IMG/VR virus record: IMGVR_UViG_3300044950_001192
Span: 1-24,086 of that record
Length of the DNA: 24,086 nucleotides
Reading direction: 5' to 3' (one strand)
Source of the DNA: a virus
Both the position numbers and the translations under genes were made by a program. The notes beneath the pieces are model-generated. The model made no database searches and was not told where the DNA came from. It saw only the letters and a program-made list of their open reading frames with translations. Shown here piece after piece: positions 1,725 to 23,549 of the stretch (the stretch's first letter is position 1; the number at the start of each line of letters is the position of its first letter).

Positions 1725-2606
1725 TCAGGTGATGGAGTCGATGAATGCCCGATCGGGGGCGAGGGAGTCGATGTTCCGGAGCATCGATCCGCGCATGCCG
1801 TCCATGAGCCAGATCGGCCGGCCGGCTTTGGCCGCAATCTGCAGGCCGGGCAGGTTTGACCTGAGGGCCCAGGAGTGGTCGGTGTCAAGCACCTGGGGGC
1901 CAGTGAAGCCGGCCACAGGGGCGGGGCCGCCTGGGGCGATCCAATCGGCGCCAGTGGTGCGCATCCATTGCTGGCCCCCTTCGGGGTGGACAGCGCGGGC
2001 GTAGGAGACGCCGACGGGCTTGTCGGTGAGCTTGTTGACGAGGCCGACGACCCAGCGTTGAAACCAGGTGATGGAGGGTTTGGTGAGCTCGTTGCCGACC
2101 TCGAAAAGCACATTCGAGTACGGCTCCAGGGTGCGGACCATCTTGCGGACGTGGGCCTTCTGGAAGCGGTTCCAGGGGCCCTGGGTGTGGACGTCGTGGT
2201 GGGTTGCAGGGCCATGGCCACGGAAGGGGTGGAACTCCCAGGCGCGGGGAAAGAGGTCGGGAATCGAGCCCTCGAAGAGCACCACCCCGGTCACCATGTC
2301 CCTCTCGTCGGCGGCTGCTACGGCGCGCTCCATGCGGCGGTAGAAGCGTGGGTTGAGGGAGAGGTCTTTGCGCCAGGGGCCGCCCTTGACGCGGATGAGG
2401 CCGGGGTCGTTGCCGGCGAAGGGTGGGCGGGAGTTGACGAATGCCTTGGTCTCCACCGTCCAGAGGCGGGTGAAGTTGCCGGTGAGCTTGTCCAGGCTGG
2501 TGCGGTTGCCGTTGATAGGCTGAACGACGTCCCAGGTGTGGTTACCGGCGAGGGTGAGGGGTCGGCCGTCAACGAGGAACTGATCGCCGCGGATGGTGAC
2601 GGTCAT
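1725..2606 (-). CDS. Glycoside-hydrolase-like TIM-barrel protein
   Basis: 293 aa. The N-terminus (VDGRPLTLAGNHTWDVVQ, residues 12-29) matches the opening of cellulase-like clan A hydrolases, with a small beta hairpin and a first barrel strand. VLFEVGNELTKP at 166-177 matches the end of barrel strand 4, where clan A enzymes carry the acid/base glutamate (here E173 in GNE). Near the C-terminus RPIWLMDGMRG (263-273) sits where the strand 7 nucleophile is usually Glu, but here it is Asp269, so classical retaining activity is uncertain. There is no signal peptide, as expected for a virion component. It lies between gpZ-like and a small DNA-binding-like gene with ATGA overlap. It may act on host capsule or polysaccharide from the tail, or serve as a binding domain. 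Confidence 0.6.
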   Translation of the reverse strand: MTVTIRGDQFLVDGRPLTLAGNHTWDVVQPINGNRTSLDKLTGNFTRLWTVETKAFVNSRPPFAGNDPGLIRVKGGPWRKDLSLNPRFYRRMERAVAAADERDMVTGVVLFEGSIPDLFPRAWEFHPFRGHGPATHHDVHTQGPWNRFQKAHVRKMVRTLEPYSNVLFEVGNELTKPSITWFQRWVVGLVNKLTDKPVGVSYARAVHPEGGQQWMRTTGADWIAPGGPAPVAGFTGPQVLDTDHSWALRSNLPGLQIAAKAGRPIWLMDGMRGSMLRNIDSLAPDRAFIDSIT

Positions 2607-18188: not shown

Positions 18189-18207
18189 GTGGGAACGGTG
18201 TGGGAAC
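18189..18207 (+). repeat. GTGGGAAC tandem pair 4
   Basis: GTGGGAAC, GGT, GTGGGAAC, ending one base before the integrase ATG. An in-frame GTG codon lies within it, but the ATG at 18209 is the natural start. Confidence 0.85.
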
Positions 18208-18208
18208 G

Positions 18209-19375
18209 ATGAAGCTGACGAAGACCGTGGTGGAGCGCGCCACCCCCCGGGCCCAGCGGTACCGGCTGAACGACTCCCTGGTGCCGGGCCTCACCCTGCT
18301 GGTGCTGCCCTCCGGGGCCCGCACCTGGTACCTGAGGCATCGGGTCGACGGGCGCCAGCGTGAGCTGAAGCTGGGCACCCCGGCGGAGCTCACCCCGGAT
18401 GACGCAAGGCGGCTGGCCAGGGAGGCCCTCGCCCGCGTGCGCGAGGGTGGGGATCCGGTCGAGGAGCGCAAGCAGCGCCGCGAGGCCCCGACCGGGCAGG
18501 GCCTCTACGAGCGCCACCGCCTGGCGCGGCAGGCCCGGCCCGGGTGGGTGACGGAGGACTTCATCTGGCGCAACCACCTGCTGCCGGCCTTCGGTCGGGT
18601 CCAGGTGGGGCGGATAACCACGCCGATGGTGCAGGAGTTCTACGACCGGGCAGGGCGGCGGCCGGTCGCCCGCGCGGCGGTGCTGCAGCTGGCCAGGGCC
18701 CTGCGGCTGAGCGAGCGGTGGGGGTGGTGGGGCGACGGCCGGGCGCCGCGGCCGTGCCTGGGTGTGGAGCTCGACGCGAAGGTGGCCCGTGAGCGGTACC
18801 TGAGCGGCGACGAGCTGCGCCGGCTGCGCGACGCCCTAGTGCGGTGGGAGGCGGGGGGCCCTGGGGTGCGGTGGCGGTTCTGCCAGCTGATCCGCCTGCT
18901 GCTGCTCACCGGCTGCCGCCTGCGCGAGGTGCTCCATGCGCGGTGGGAGTGGGTGGACTGGACCGGGGGGCGGCTGATCATCCCGGCGGAGCACCACAAG
19001 ACCGGGCGGCGGACGGGCCGTGCCCGGCGGGTGCTGCTGGTGCCCAGGGCGATGGAGATCCTCGAGGAGCTGCGTGCGCATCAGCCGCCCGATGGTGGGG
19101 AGTGGGTGATCGCCGGGGGCCGGCCTGGCCAGCCGCTGGGCGGTTACCACTCGCTGTGGAAGGAGCTGCGGGATGAGGTGGGCCTGGTGGACTGCCGGCC
19201 ACACGACCTGCGGCACACGTTCGCCAGCTACGGGCTGAGCGCGGGACACGGGATCGACGTGGTGGGCCAGCTGCTGGGGCACACCAGCCTCCAGTCAACG
19301 CGGCGGTACGCGCACCTGATCGAGGACGCAGGGCGCGCGGCGGCGGCGCGGGTGAGCGACGACCTGGGAGTGTGA
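18209..19375 (+). CDS. int: Tyrosine-family site-specific integrase
   Basis: 388 aa. Residues 1-90 form the DUF4102-type N-terminal domain that binds arm sites (MKLTKTVVERATPRAQRYRL, then a WYLRHRVDGR strand). Residues 95-170 are the core-binding SAM-like domain. The catalytic domain is complete: R237 in TGCRLRE, K264 in HHKTG, H332-R335 in PHDLRHTFAS, H358 in LLGHTS and Tyr367 in STRRYAHL. The start is ATG 18209 because the GTG nine bases earlier is inside a GTGGGAAC repeat. It faces away from unit B, so unit B is at its 5' end. It should integrate and excise the phage at the adjacent att region. The stop codon overlaps an exact copy of the dispersed motif. Confidence 0.92.
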   Translation: MKLTKTVVERATPRAQRYRLNDSLVPGLTLLVLPSGARTWYLRHRVDGRQRELKLGTPAELTPDDARRLAREALARVREGGDPVEERKQRREAPTGQGLYERHRLARQARPGWVTEDFIWRNHLLPAFGRVQVGRITTPMVQEFYDRAGRRPVARAAVLQLARALRLSERWGWWGDGRAPRPCLGVELDAKVARERYLSGDELRRLRDALVRWEAGGPGVRWRFCQLIRLLLLTGCRLREVLHARWEWVDWTGGRLIIPAEHHKTGRRTGRARRVLLVPRAMEILEELRAHQPPDGGEWVIAGGRPGQPLGGYHSLWKELRDEVGLVDCRPHDLRHTFASYGLSAGHGIDVVGQLLGHTSLQSTRRYAHLIEDAGRAAAARVSDDLGV

Positions 19376-19815: not shown

Positions 19816-20259
19816 CTACGAGAGCAGCTCGCGCGGATCCTGCCCTGTTGCCATCATCTGACTTAGGCGCTTCGCGCGCTGCCCGACCTGGCCGGCCCAG
19901 CGAGAGTCGAGCATCATCACCGCCGCCTGCTGATACTGCCCGGCCTGCACTGCCGCCAGCGTCCGCTTGAACGTCAGCAGCGTGCCCAGGCCCATGTTGA
20001 ACGCCATGTCGATCAGCACCCGCTGCCGCACGTCATCGAGGTTCCCCGCCCATGGCAGCGCCTTCAGCAGCGCCGCCTGGGTGGAGGTGATGTCGTTGCT
20101 CAGCAGATAGGCCGACTCCTGCGCCGTGATGCCACGGTCCTCAAGGTTGCGGCCGACGCCGATCGTCAGCTTGCCGGCGGTGCAGCGATACGGCTTGAGC
20201 CGCTCGCCTTCATGCAGCCTGAGCTGACGCACCAGGCGGCTGTGATCGATCAGCGCCAT
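19816..20259 (-). CDS. T4-type lysozyme endolysin (GH24)
   Basis: 147 aa. LHEGERLKPYRCTAGKLTIG is the T4 lysozyme active site: Glu17, then eight residues, Cys26, then five residues, Thr32. T4 has Asp at the middle position. Cys is an accepted natural variant of the E-8-D/C-5-T triad and retains activity in T4 by established mutagenesis. IGVGRN follows as usual and a helical C-terminal lobe completes the fold. It cuts the glycan strands of peptidoglycan. No signal or SAR helix is present, so release depends on a holin. The ATG shares one base with the upstream stop (TGATG). Confidence 0.9.
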   Translation of the reverse strand: MALIDHSRLVRQLRLHEGERLKPYRCTAGKLTIGVGRNLEDRGITAQESAYLLSNDITSTQAALLKALPWAGNLDDVRQRVLIDMAFNMGLGTLLTFKRTLAAVQAGQYQQAAVMMLDSRWAGQVGQRAKRLSQMMATGQDPRELLS

Positions 20260-20481: not shown

Positions 20482-21231
20482 TCAGGTGATGGGTTGAGCG
20501 ATGATCGCCCAGCCGTTGCCGGGCGCGTAGCGGTAGCTGTTGCCTGATGGCACCACCTCCCACCGACGACAGAAGTTCTTGAACGAGTAGCGCAGCCTGG
20601 CGCCCCAGTTGTTGATGTAACCGCCGCTCAGCACGTCCATCTCGCCAAACGGGTCGTGGACGATGAAGTTGGTGGCGTCGTAGCCGATGGCGATCAGCCA
20701 GTGGCCGTCGCCGTAGAGGTTGCCGAGGCCGCCCTTGTGGATGCAGCCGAGGGGCACCGGGATCCCCTTGTCGATCTGCGCCTTGACGTCATCGATCCCA
20801 CAGGTCTGGTCCAGGTGGGCGGTGACGCCATAGTGCGCCAGCGCCTTGATCTGGTTCGGGGCCTCGGTGGTGTCGCCATAGCGCAGCACCCGGCCCAGAT
20901 AGGTGTCGTCGCCGTTCGGGCCCTTGAGCGTCCCCGGCTTGAGGGTCTCCAGGAGCATGGCGCAGCTGGAGCTGAAGCACATCCTGAGCGCGTGCGCGGT
21001 GGCCGAGTCGCGCTGGCTGTAGTAGGGCACCTGCAGCGGGTTGCTGAGCGTGCGCGGCTGCTCCTGCTTCCCCGCCCCCTGCCAGGTCTGATACCAGCTG
21101 GCGTCGCGGCGCTTCAGGCTGGCCGGCACCGCCTCCCAGAACTGCTGAGCACCGGCCCGTTGATGAGGGAGGCCTTTCCAGTGCTCGAAGAACGGAACGA
21201 TGTCAGGGAGCAGCCCCGGTTCTTGAGTCAT
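20482..21231 (-). CDS. C39-like cysteine peptidase
   Basis: 249 aa. VPYYSQRDSATAHALRMCFS then SSCAM give the papain-like active site: Gln73 and Cys85 (CFSSSCAM follows the CGPxSxAM pattern). His177 in GDGHWLIAIGY and Asp193 in FIVHDPFG complete the triad. This is the peptidase C39-like fold. In phages next to lysins it may cleave peptide bridges of the cell wall, aiding lysis. There is no signal peptide. The ATG at 21231 is chosen over an upstream one because GAGG lies nine bases before it and the domain then starts normally. It overlaps the XhlA-like gene by 29 bases. Confidence 0.7.
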   Translation of the reverse strand: MTQEPGLLPDIVPFFEHWKGLPHQRAGAQQFWEAVPASLKRRDASWYQTWQGAGKQEQPRTLSNPLQVPYYSQRDSATAHALRMCFSSSCAMLLETLKPGTLKGPNGDDTYLGRVLRYGDTTEAPNQIKALAHYGVTAHLDQTCGIDDVKAQIDKGIPVPLGCIHKGGLGNLYGDGHWLIAIGYDATNFIVHDPFGEMDVLSGGYINNWGARLRYSFKNFCRRWEVVPSGNSYRYAPGNGWAIIAQPIT

Positions 21232-21490
21232 GGCTGCTGGCCTCAGCCGGTGGTCCACCGAAGTGTAGCCGGGCCCCAACTGCCGACCACAGCACCGGTG
21301 CAATCAGGCTGATCACCACCGCCAGGATGACGCCCTGGGCCACGCGCTTCTCTACCTCGACCAGCCGCTTGAACGCATCGGCCAGGTCTGTTCGCTTCTC
21401 CGCAACGGACACCATGACAGCATCGAGCTTCCCCTCCAGGGCGCCGAGCTTGTGGTAGATGTCTCCGTGCGAGACCTCGTGCTCCGGCAT
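21203..21490 (-). CDS. XhlA-like coiled-coil membrane protein
   Basis: 95 aa. Residues 1-52 (MPEHEVSHGDIYHKLGALEG, then KLDAVMVSVAEKRTDLADAF) form a coiled coil and 53-73 form one transmembrane helix (VILAVVISLIAPVLW). This is the plan of XhlA-type proteins that work beside holins. The ATG at 21490 follows GGGG by seven bases; another ATG six codons upstream is possible. It directly follows the tail hub gene and opens the lysis cassette. The C-terminal tail is polar. Function is inferred from layout and position. Confidence 0.55.
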   Translation of the reverse strand: MPEHEVSHGDIYHKLGALEGKLDAVMVSVAEKRTDLADAFKRLVEVEKRVAQGVILAVVISLIAPVLWSAVGARLHFGGPPAEASSHDSRTGAAP

Positions 21491-21513
21491 AGTGGGACCC
21501 CGATCCATGCAGG

Positions 21514-23340
21514 TTACTTCAGCCGCCAGTATTCAGGAGTGCGCCCGTAGTAGCTGGTGTAGCCACTCGGCCGTGCAACCCAGCTGAAGGTCCCCTTGCT
21601 GGAGCTGTTGCTGATGATCGATCCATCGTTCTGCACGATGCCGATGTGGGGATAGGGCGGGTTGCCGTTGTCGCGCATGATAGCGATGGCGCCAGGCTCG
21701 GGGCCTGATAGCAGGGTGCCGGCGCCGCCCGCCAGCGTGCTGCGCACGGTGGGGACGTAGTTGCTGTTGCCCCACGGCGGAGTGATTCCTGCGCTTCTCA
21801 ATACCTTGTTCACGGCATAGACGCAAGCGTTGTTCCCGCTATCCGGACCGCCCCTGGTGTTCATCCCCCTGGCGCTGGTCGCAGCCTTCGCCAGCAGTCG
21901 TGCTTTTTCCGTCGACGGCTTGCCATCGTTCGCCCCGCCCCCGCTGGCCCAGTCGGTGTTGTCCTCGCCCTGGGTGCCGCACTCCACCCGGGTGGTGAAG
22001 CCGCCGTCAGCAAGCTCGTGCACCACCTCCTTGATCAGCCAGGTGCCGTCCACCTCAGCACGAAACCCAGAGAGGGTGACGTCGCCATCAGCATTCAGCT
22101 CCGGCCGGCCGGGCGTCGTGACGCTGATGCGCACCTCGCCAGACTTGAGCGCCTCGAGCTTGCTGGCGGCTGCCTCCTTGGCCTCGTCCTCACTGCGGAA
22201 CAACTGCTTCTCCTCGAACACCGGCAACGGGCCCTTCTGCCCAGCGGTGTAGACCTTCTCCTTGTTGCTCTCCCGGTCCAGATACTTGACCTTCACGGCG
22301 TCATAGGCGCCGCGGTTCTTGAGCGTCGCCCGCCACTGAGTTGCTTCGGTGCCCTTGATGTTGAAGCTGCCGCGCACACCACCGGGCAGGCCACCGAGGC
22401 CAGCGCCTGCGCCCGCCCGCGCGCCGGCGAGGTAGCGCTTGTATGCGCCGGAGCGGTAGACCGACCAGGCGCCGAAGCCTTGCTGCTGGTAGATCGCCCG
22501 CGCTGCCCTGGCGTTGGCCGCTGGGTCGTAGAGCTGCTCATTGCTCGACAGCCCCAGCTGGCGGCGGCGATCGGAGCCAAGACTGCCGATCATGTTGATC
22601 TGCCACAGGCCATAACTCAGGTCGGGCGGCTTGCTGTTCAATGCCCGCACCTGGCCGCCAGATTCAGCCATAGCGATGGCGCCCATGGTGATGGCGTCGT
22701 TGCCGGTAAACCCCGCCTGCCGCGCGAGGGCGACCGCTTGGCCGGCGCTGATCCGCCCGGTAGTGTTCGGCACCGGGCTGGCGCTGCCTTTGCCCCTGGG
22801 CGCGACGATCAGCGTGCCGTCAGCCGGCTTGATCGTCGCGCCGTACTTCTCCGCCAGGCGGGTCAGGAAGCTCTGGTCGGACTCGCTGGTCTGGTCCTCA
22901 TGCTTTACCTTCACGTCGCCCAGCTTGCCTTTCAGGACTAGCTGGAGGCCATTGCGCTTGGCGATCTCCTCGGCGATCTTCCCCAGGGTGGTGTTGTGCC
23001 AGCTCTGGGAGCGCTGCTCCTTCACCAGTTCAGGTGCGGTCTGGGCGGCGGTGGCCTTGATCACCATGGACCGGGGCCCGTTGCCCAGGTCCACCTCATC
23101 GACGGCGTAACTGCCCATGTAGACCGGGGCTTGACCTGCGGCGCGATAGCCCAGCCACACCTTCAGCCAGGCGCCTGAGCGGGGCACTGGAACCTGTGCG
23201 TTGCGGTCATCAAGGGCGACCTCCAGGCTGTCGGATTGCTGGCCGGCCTGATCGGTGATGCGGAGGGAGATGAGGCGATCGGCGATGATTCCCGTAAGGT
23301 CTGTGCCATCAGCCTCCAGGCGGAAGGCGGGGGTGCTCAT
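21514..23340 (-). CDS. gpD-like baseplate hub with two wall-hydrolase domains
   Basis: 608 aa. Residues 1-185 and about 325-455 resemble the P2 gpD/late-control tail hub (PVYMGSYAVDEVDLGNGPRS, and GTWLIKEVVHELADGGFTTR at the end). Between them, residues 198-305 are a lytic transglycosylase-like insertion: catalytic Glu226 in IAMAESGG and YGLWQINM at 243-250. Residues 475-608 form a cysteine-hydrolase-like domain with Cys506 in NACVYAVNKVL and His565 in YPHIGIV, as in CHAP or NlpC/P60 enzymes. A Gly-rich linker (306-322) follows the first insertion. One protein thus combines the tail spike hub with two different peptidoglycan-cutting activities for entry. It starts at 23340 in an ATGA overlap. 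Confidence 0.8.
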   Translation of the reverse strand: MSTPAFRLEADGTDLTGIIADRLISLRITDQAGQQSDSLEVALDDRNAQVPVPRSGAWLKVWLGYRAAGQAPVYMGSYAVDEVDLGNGPRSMVIKATAAQTAPELVKEQRSQSWHNTTLGKIAEEIAKRNGLQLVLKGKLGDVKVKHEDQTSESDQSFLTRLAEKYGATIKPADGTLIVAPRGKGSASPVPNTTGRISAGQAVALARQAGFTGNDAITMGAIAMAESGGQVRALNSKPPDLSYGLWQINMIGSLGSDRRRQLGLSSNEQLYDPAANARAARAIYQQQGFGAWSVYRSGAYKRYLAGARAGAGAGLGGLPGGVRGSFNIKGTEATQWRATLKNRGAYDAVKVKYLDRESNKEKVYTAGQKGPLPVFEEKQLFRSEDEAKEAAASKLEALKSGEVRISVTTPGRPELNADGDVTLSGFRAEVDGTWLIKEVVHELADGGFTTRVECGTQGEDNTDWASGGGANDGKPSTEKARLLAKAATSARGMNTRGGPDSGNNACVYAVNKVLRSAGITPPWGNSNYVPTVRSTLAGGAGTLLSGPEPGAIAIMRDNGNPPYPHIGIVQNDGSIISNSSSKGTFSWVARPSGYTSYYGRTPEYWRLK

Positions 23341-23549
23341 AGATCCCAGATCCTGAGTGTGGTGGTGGTTTCAGGATCTGGGAGATCAGGCAGCTCGATG
23401 GTCAGGCCTTCGGGCAGCACCGGCATGAGATCGGCCAGGTTGGGGTTGGCCACCATAAGCGCCTCGACGGTCTGCTGGGTGCGGCCGTAGAACCGCCAGC
23501 AGATCAGGTCGAGCTCATCGAACTGGCGGGTGACATAGAGCTGGCTCAT
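23337..23549 (-). CDS. gpX-like tail protein
   Basis: 70 aa: MSQLYVTRQFDELDLICWRF, then YGRTQQTVEALMVANPNLAD and LPEGLTIELPDLPDP. The pattern, a short LysM-like repeat with LDxICWxxYG and ANPxLADxxPxLPxGLxIxLP, is that of P2 gpX, a baseplate or tail component next to gpD. It shares an ATGA overlap with the hub gene and a TGATG with the beta-helix gene, which fits a tail operon with gpX before gpD. Confidence 0.85.
   Translation of the reverse strand: MSQLYVTRQFDELDLICWRFYGRTQQTVEALMVANPNLADLMPVLPEGLTIELPDLPDPETTTTLRIWDL

Follow-up and report, generated by a model that had tools for sequence, protein, structure and literature searches.

The window (the whole stretch of viral DNA analyzed, 24,086 nucleotides) contained a gene for a baseplate hub of the gpD type, in which two domains were predicted to be wall hydrolases. 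With a probability of roughly 77%, this protein, the counterpart of T4 gp27, is the hub of a contractile, P2-like temperate picocyanophage and opens the host wall at entry with two enzymes. The loop that joins the two hub halves would house a glycan-cutting domain (SLT_3), and a flexible C-terminal linker would bear a CHAP domain that cuts peptides (Table 1). Tail contraction would push the hub, presumably assembled as a trimer, through the outer membrane. Both domains, if catalytic as we infer, would then cleave glycan strands and stem-peptide cross-links at one spot, and the local hole in the peptidoglycan would provide a passage for the tail tube.

Table 1. Features of the hub gene and of neighboring genes in the window.
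Feature	Position	Strand	Basis or remark
gpD-type baseplate hub gene, two predicted wall-hydrolase domains	21514..23340	-	608 aa
Hub N-terminal half, aa 1-190	22771..23340	-	phrog_52, Phage_GPD and 6u5h matches at aa 4-188
Inserted SLT_3 lysozyme/lytic-transglycosylase-like domain, aa 195-309	22414..22758	-	Pfam SLT_3 and c-type lysozyme profile matches
Glu226 codon	22663-22665	-	Predicted catalytic Glu of the SLT_3 insert
Hub C-terminal half, aa 325-456, resuming the hub past the insert	21973..22368	-	Homology to SLT-less relatives with clean junctions; PHROG and fold matches
Linker, aa 457-489, fast-changing, low-confidence	21874..21972	-	pLDDT <50 at 457-469; dN above neighbors in close pairs
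CHAP/NlpC-P60-like Cys peptidase or amidase domain, aa 490-608	21517..21873	-	Pfam CHAP, invariant C/H/N, alpha-beta order in model
Cys506, His565 and Asn578 codons	21823-21825; 21646-21648; 21607-21609	-	Predicted catalytic residues of the CHAP-like domain
gpX-like tail protein, upstream of hub, 4-nt overlap	23337..23549	-	Phage_tail_X, E 3.2e-22
Small membrane-like protein after hub (101 aa); holin-like as a guess	21203..21508	-	Place kept in relatives; weak phrog_5225
C39-like peptidase, PHROG endolysin family	20482..21303	-	Peptidase_C39_2, E 7.7e-10; phrog_10051, E 3.4e-59
GH24 phage lysozyme, likely lysis endolysin, separate from hub enzymes	19816..20259	-	Phage_lysozyme, E 3.9e-13
Tyrosine integrase, temperate phage	18200..19375	+	Phage_integrase, E 4.1e-20

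The hub ORF starts with ATG, which overlaps the stop codon of the gpX-like gene (ATGA). Its product matched Pfam Phage_GPD (51.5 bits against a cut-off of 30.1, E 1.1e-13) and the PHROG tail family phrog_52 (E 1.6e-104), and the pyocin R2 hub (6u5h) was its closest relative among solved sequences (E 9e-46). The AlphaFold model, calculated from a 59-row alignment, had a mean pLDDT of 76.5, which makes the domain folds usable, but a low pTM of 0.48, at which the placement of the domains is not. It superseded a model from 30 close hubs, which was dropped for its poor insert and its mean pLDDT of 67. In Foldseek searches the full model matched 6u5h (4e-21), Mu gp44 (4e-14) and T4 gp27 (1e-9), as well as the hubs of prophage MuSo2, P1 and cyanophage A-1(L); only hub matches were returned, none of them supporting enzyme folds. 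The hub fold is strongly supported, and these matches bear out an earlier note that had called the product gpD-like on sequence grounds and had placed E226, YGLWQI, C506 and H565 exactly. Chance or an assembly chimera was ruled out as the origin of the dual-domain hub, because full-length dual-domain homologues were found in many independent contigs.

The gpX-like gene is present in the window, and the full tape-U-X-D neighborhood was seen in relatives. Their order sheath-tube-tape-U-X-hub-small ORF-C39-GH24 was conserved, followed by the integrase where the contigs reached that far. The window also encodes a VapE-type primase/helicase, RecT, SSB and Minor_tail_Z. The gene order and the integrase, VapE, RecT and SSB genes therefore indicate a temperate contractile P2-like phage with its lysis-type enzymes in separate genes. 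The least probable reading, and a highly improbable one, takes the element for a contractile injection system or a tailocin that uses the enzymes for killing competitors or delivering effectors. The hub of an Anabaena contractile injection system was the best fold match of the model and a weak VgrG-related NCBIfam match was obtained, but this reading is opposed by the five phage genes just named, by the source of the window (a virus record) and by the location of relatives on viral contigs of 48-51 kb.

Full-length relatives occur in genomes of Cyanobium and other picocyanobacteria. Relatives were located on contigs of Cyanobium (L085) and Synechococcaceae (L086), in a Cyanobium isolate (L087) and on a 2.7-Mb cyanobacterial chromosome from the same class (L107/L139). 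The Cyanobium hub of L085 was 74% identical to an SLT-less query over its full length. The cyanobacterial host named in the earlier note agrees with these locations, and assignment to freshwater picocyanobacteria of the Cyanobium/Synechococcus group is supported. A literature search on Cyanobium prophages and cyanobacterial wall thickness returned nothing usable. No tRNA that might serve as an attachment site was found in the window. A tRNA-Met with 23 flanking bases lies beside the integrase, 99% identical, in a Cyanobium contig (L085:16741-16840) and a phage contig (L037:11601-11700), and this shared region is a possible attachment site. Elsewhere in the window, a 293-aa ORF (1725-2606, minus strand) looked glycoside-hydrolase-like by eye (NE motif) and had no Pfam, PHROG or PDB match.

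The inserted transglycosylase-like domain proposed in the earlier note was recovered as SLT_3, at 65.4 bits against a curated cut-off of 27 (E 6.6e-18), and Pfam SLT was likewise above its cut-off. A profile of the insert from 20 diverse relatives matched c-type lysozymes (2fbd, E 3e-8) and aligned Glu226 with the catalytic Glu. This residue (context AMAESGG) and the SYGLWQIN motif (YGLWQI at 243-248) were invariant in the 20 relatives, which included tape-measure and other tail proteins. The column of Asp52 of the c-type lysozymes was occupied by Ser242, as read off the profile alignment. Since a second acidic residue is lacking, the insert might act as a transglycosylase, as a lysozyme of weak activity or as a mere glycan binder. 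Judged from sequence, it is equally c-type-lysozyme-like, and both a lytic transglycosylase and a one-Glu lysozyme are possible, with an anhydro or a hydrolysed product, respectively. SLT matches in INPHARED phage records were confined to Prochlorococcus, Synechococcus and Streptomyces phages.

Compared with dual-domain relatives 65-93% identical overall, SLT had a dN/dS of 0.11-0.34 and CHAP one of 0.06-0.23, which in most pairs was about equal to or below the hub core; these low values show purifying selection on both domains and count against a decayed insert. SLT was absent from most close relatives and is therefore dispensable for the hub family. No SLT relative that might compensate was matched elsewhere within the DNA fetched for the SLT-less loci. 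This absence, together with a nearly universal C-terminal peptidase and the missing Asp52 equivalent, would fit a hub in which CHAP alone is active as wall enzyme, with the SLT_3 insert turned into a module that binds peptidoglycan or serves as an anchor and so brings the peptidase into position. We consider that arrangement unlikely, given the invariance of Glu226 and SYGLWQIN, the strong purifying selection on SLT and the fact that lytic transglycosylases (GH23) require just one Glu. A hub with two active enzymes is preferred.

The C-terminal domain had been described as Cys/His hydrolase-like, and this description stands. CHAP (PF05257) scored 25.5 bits in the hub, just below the Pfam cut-off of 26, and 31.3 bits in the 48%-identical relative L108. 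Cys506, His565 and Asn578 were invariant in relatives down to 36% identity. Their order in the model was papain-like, with Cys at a helix N-terminus, His on a strand and Asn on the next strand. The profile of the domain matched solved NlpC/P60 or CHAP structures weakly (E about 0.01). Within phage records this CHAP family was found in Synechococcus phages only, and CHAP-only matches in the genome scan, a non-exhaustive one using few peptide patterns, were all from cyanobacteria. The same CHAP family also forms the C-terminus of non-hub proteins longer than 600 aa in cyanobacterial genomes (L122, L126, L128, L132 and L134), several of which have GH19- or lysozyme-like domains ahead of it. They are possibly conjugation or secreted wall enzymes.

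Related CHAP-bearing proteins sit in an 'endolysin' PHROG and the hub gene adjoins the lysis cassette, as might be expected if the two domains served mainly in lysis or virion release. We regard this as very unlikely. Both enzymes are part of a structural protein, the hub, whose synteny is conserved, and the hub hydrolases of the Anabaena phage A-1(L) have been assigned to entry (PMC10966104). We infer action in entry rather than in lysis also because GH24 and C39, as lysis-type genes, are present separately, downstream of the hub.

A hub-targeted scan and the first scan together gave 74 distinct hub cores, with counts biased by the seeds. Among them, 36 carried CHAP only, 20 an M23-like domain only and 15 SLT with CHAP; SLT with M23, another lysozyme with M23, and no enzyme were each found once. 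A C-terminal peptidase (CHAP or M23-like) was thus predicted in 73 of the 74, and a glycan-cutter in addition in 17, at two insertion sites. The M23-like domain looks circularly permuted, as its halves matched M23 structures in reverse order. Apparently permuted M23 C-termini, with an HLD/HLH motif ahead of HxxxD, were seen in L020:2017-3879, L086:1874-3250 and L087:9998-11995. On the hub-core tree the SLT+CHAP type required five changes, at least three of them forced by well-supported branches, and the labels were strongly clustered; the tree was a quick one, and recombination within hubs could inflate the number of changes. A-1(L)-type hubs from two cyanobacterial genomes (L108 and L110) had a C-terminal CHAP of the same family, with a lysozyme-like insert in L108 and a GH19-like insert in L110 (GH19 match below the Pfam cut-off). 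From such sequence comparisons the hub enzymes look like swappable modules that were gained, lost and exchanged repeatedly among relatives.

Hub proteins in three further cyanobacterial genomes (L109, L111 and L117) were enzyme-free, indicating that cyanobacterial contractile elements do not universally require the enzyme pair. The thick cyanobacterial wall, suggested earlier as the reason for the pair, can be offered only conditionally, because many close relatives have the peptidase only. There is in our judgment an even chance that the hub of contractile cyanophages is a two-slot platform, with a near-obligatory swappable C-terminal peptidase and an optional glycan-cutter at varied sites. 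At similarly balanced odds, the slots would hold CHAP, permuted M23 or classical M23 as peptidase, and SLT_3, another lysozyme, a GH19-like domain or RlpA as glycan-cutter. If true, this would overturn the textbook rule of one catalytic domain in tail lysins of phages with Gram-negative hosts, and would link lysin number to wall architecture, not to Gram type. Since cyanobacteria combine an outer membrane with a peptidoglycan that is unusually substantial in the usual account, matched phages whose hubs either have or lack the second enzyme would be a natural experiment on the share of each cut in entry. The hub enzymes are also candidate lysins against picocyanobacteria.

Among known systems, the hub of A-1(L) (gp15, PDB 8KEA; records OR360731 and KU234533) resembles the picocyanophage hub in being a cyanophage contractile-tail hub with glycan- and peptide-cutting domains and a C-terminal peptidase. 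It has three hydrolase-like domains, two of which were active on host cells, and catalytic mutants were weaker (PMC10966104). However, its enzymes are a classical M23 and, inserted close to the N-terminus (from aa 56), a lysozyme-like domain together with one of the RlpA/DPBB type, whereas SLT_3 follows aa 190 and CHAP is C-terminal in the picocyanophage hub. Whole-protein BLAST between the two gave an E of only 0.01, and the host of A-1(L) is the filamentous Anabaena PCC 7120. No BLAST similarity was found between the L087 insert and the A-1(L) lysozyme. The 'endoglucanase' domain of gp15 (L137:12979-15678) was above the cut-off as an RlpA/DPBB lytic transglycosylase in NCBIfam and Pfam, a match suggesting that it deserves a different activity name.

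P2 gpD and the pyocin R2 hub have a core homologous to both hub halves and the same gpX-gpD neighborhood, but they are without enzyme domains (the pyocin hub has 329 aa). In T4, gp27 matches the hub fold and the puncturing device also bears the wall-cutting function, but as a single lysozyme in the spike gp5, outside the hub. The comparison with gp5 made in the earlier note is thus misplaced: gpD corresponds to gp27, so the hub enzymes sit on a different part than the T4 lysozyme.

Kyanoviridae phages S-CAM7, ACG-2014e and S-SCSM2R share the CHAP family of the hub (44-48% identical), and the S-CAM7 protein adds a lysozyme-like domain to which the L087 insert is related. Pfam detected no GPD domain in the Kyanoviridae proteins named 'late control gene D protein (GPD)' (L082:1841-4747 and L083:2606-4504), and that label is probably a misannotation.

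According to reviews, Gram-negative phages have single-enzyme tail lysins, while two-enzyme lysins are tied to thick Gram-positive walls. Phages of Gram-positive hosts have several tail lysins with two domains (PMC5380687), among them phi29 gp13 (PMC9863714), and two reviews restrict the type to such phages (PMC5380687, PMC9863714). The picocyanophage hub family and A-1(L) contradict this restriction. Phi29 gp13, SP-beta CwlP and phiMR11 gp61 each combine a glycosidase with a peptidase or amidase within one tail protein (PMC5380687, PMC9863714), with scaffolds and hosts that differ from those of the picocyanophage hub. Two activities in one hub had been called unusual. This is correct relative to the pyocin hub and to the gpD of enterobacterial P2, but not relative to A-1(L) (PMC10966104) and the Gram-positive lysins (PMC5380687, PMC9863714). 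The idea is therefore not new, as a two-enzyme hub was published for A-1(L) in 2024 and Gram-positive phages have two-domain tail lysins; what is new is the enzyme pair, the site of insertion, the occurrence in a lineage of temperate P2-like picocyanophages and the exchange of modules on repeated occasions.
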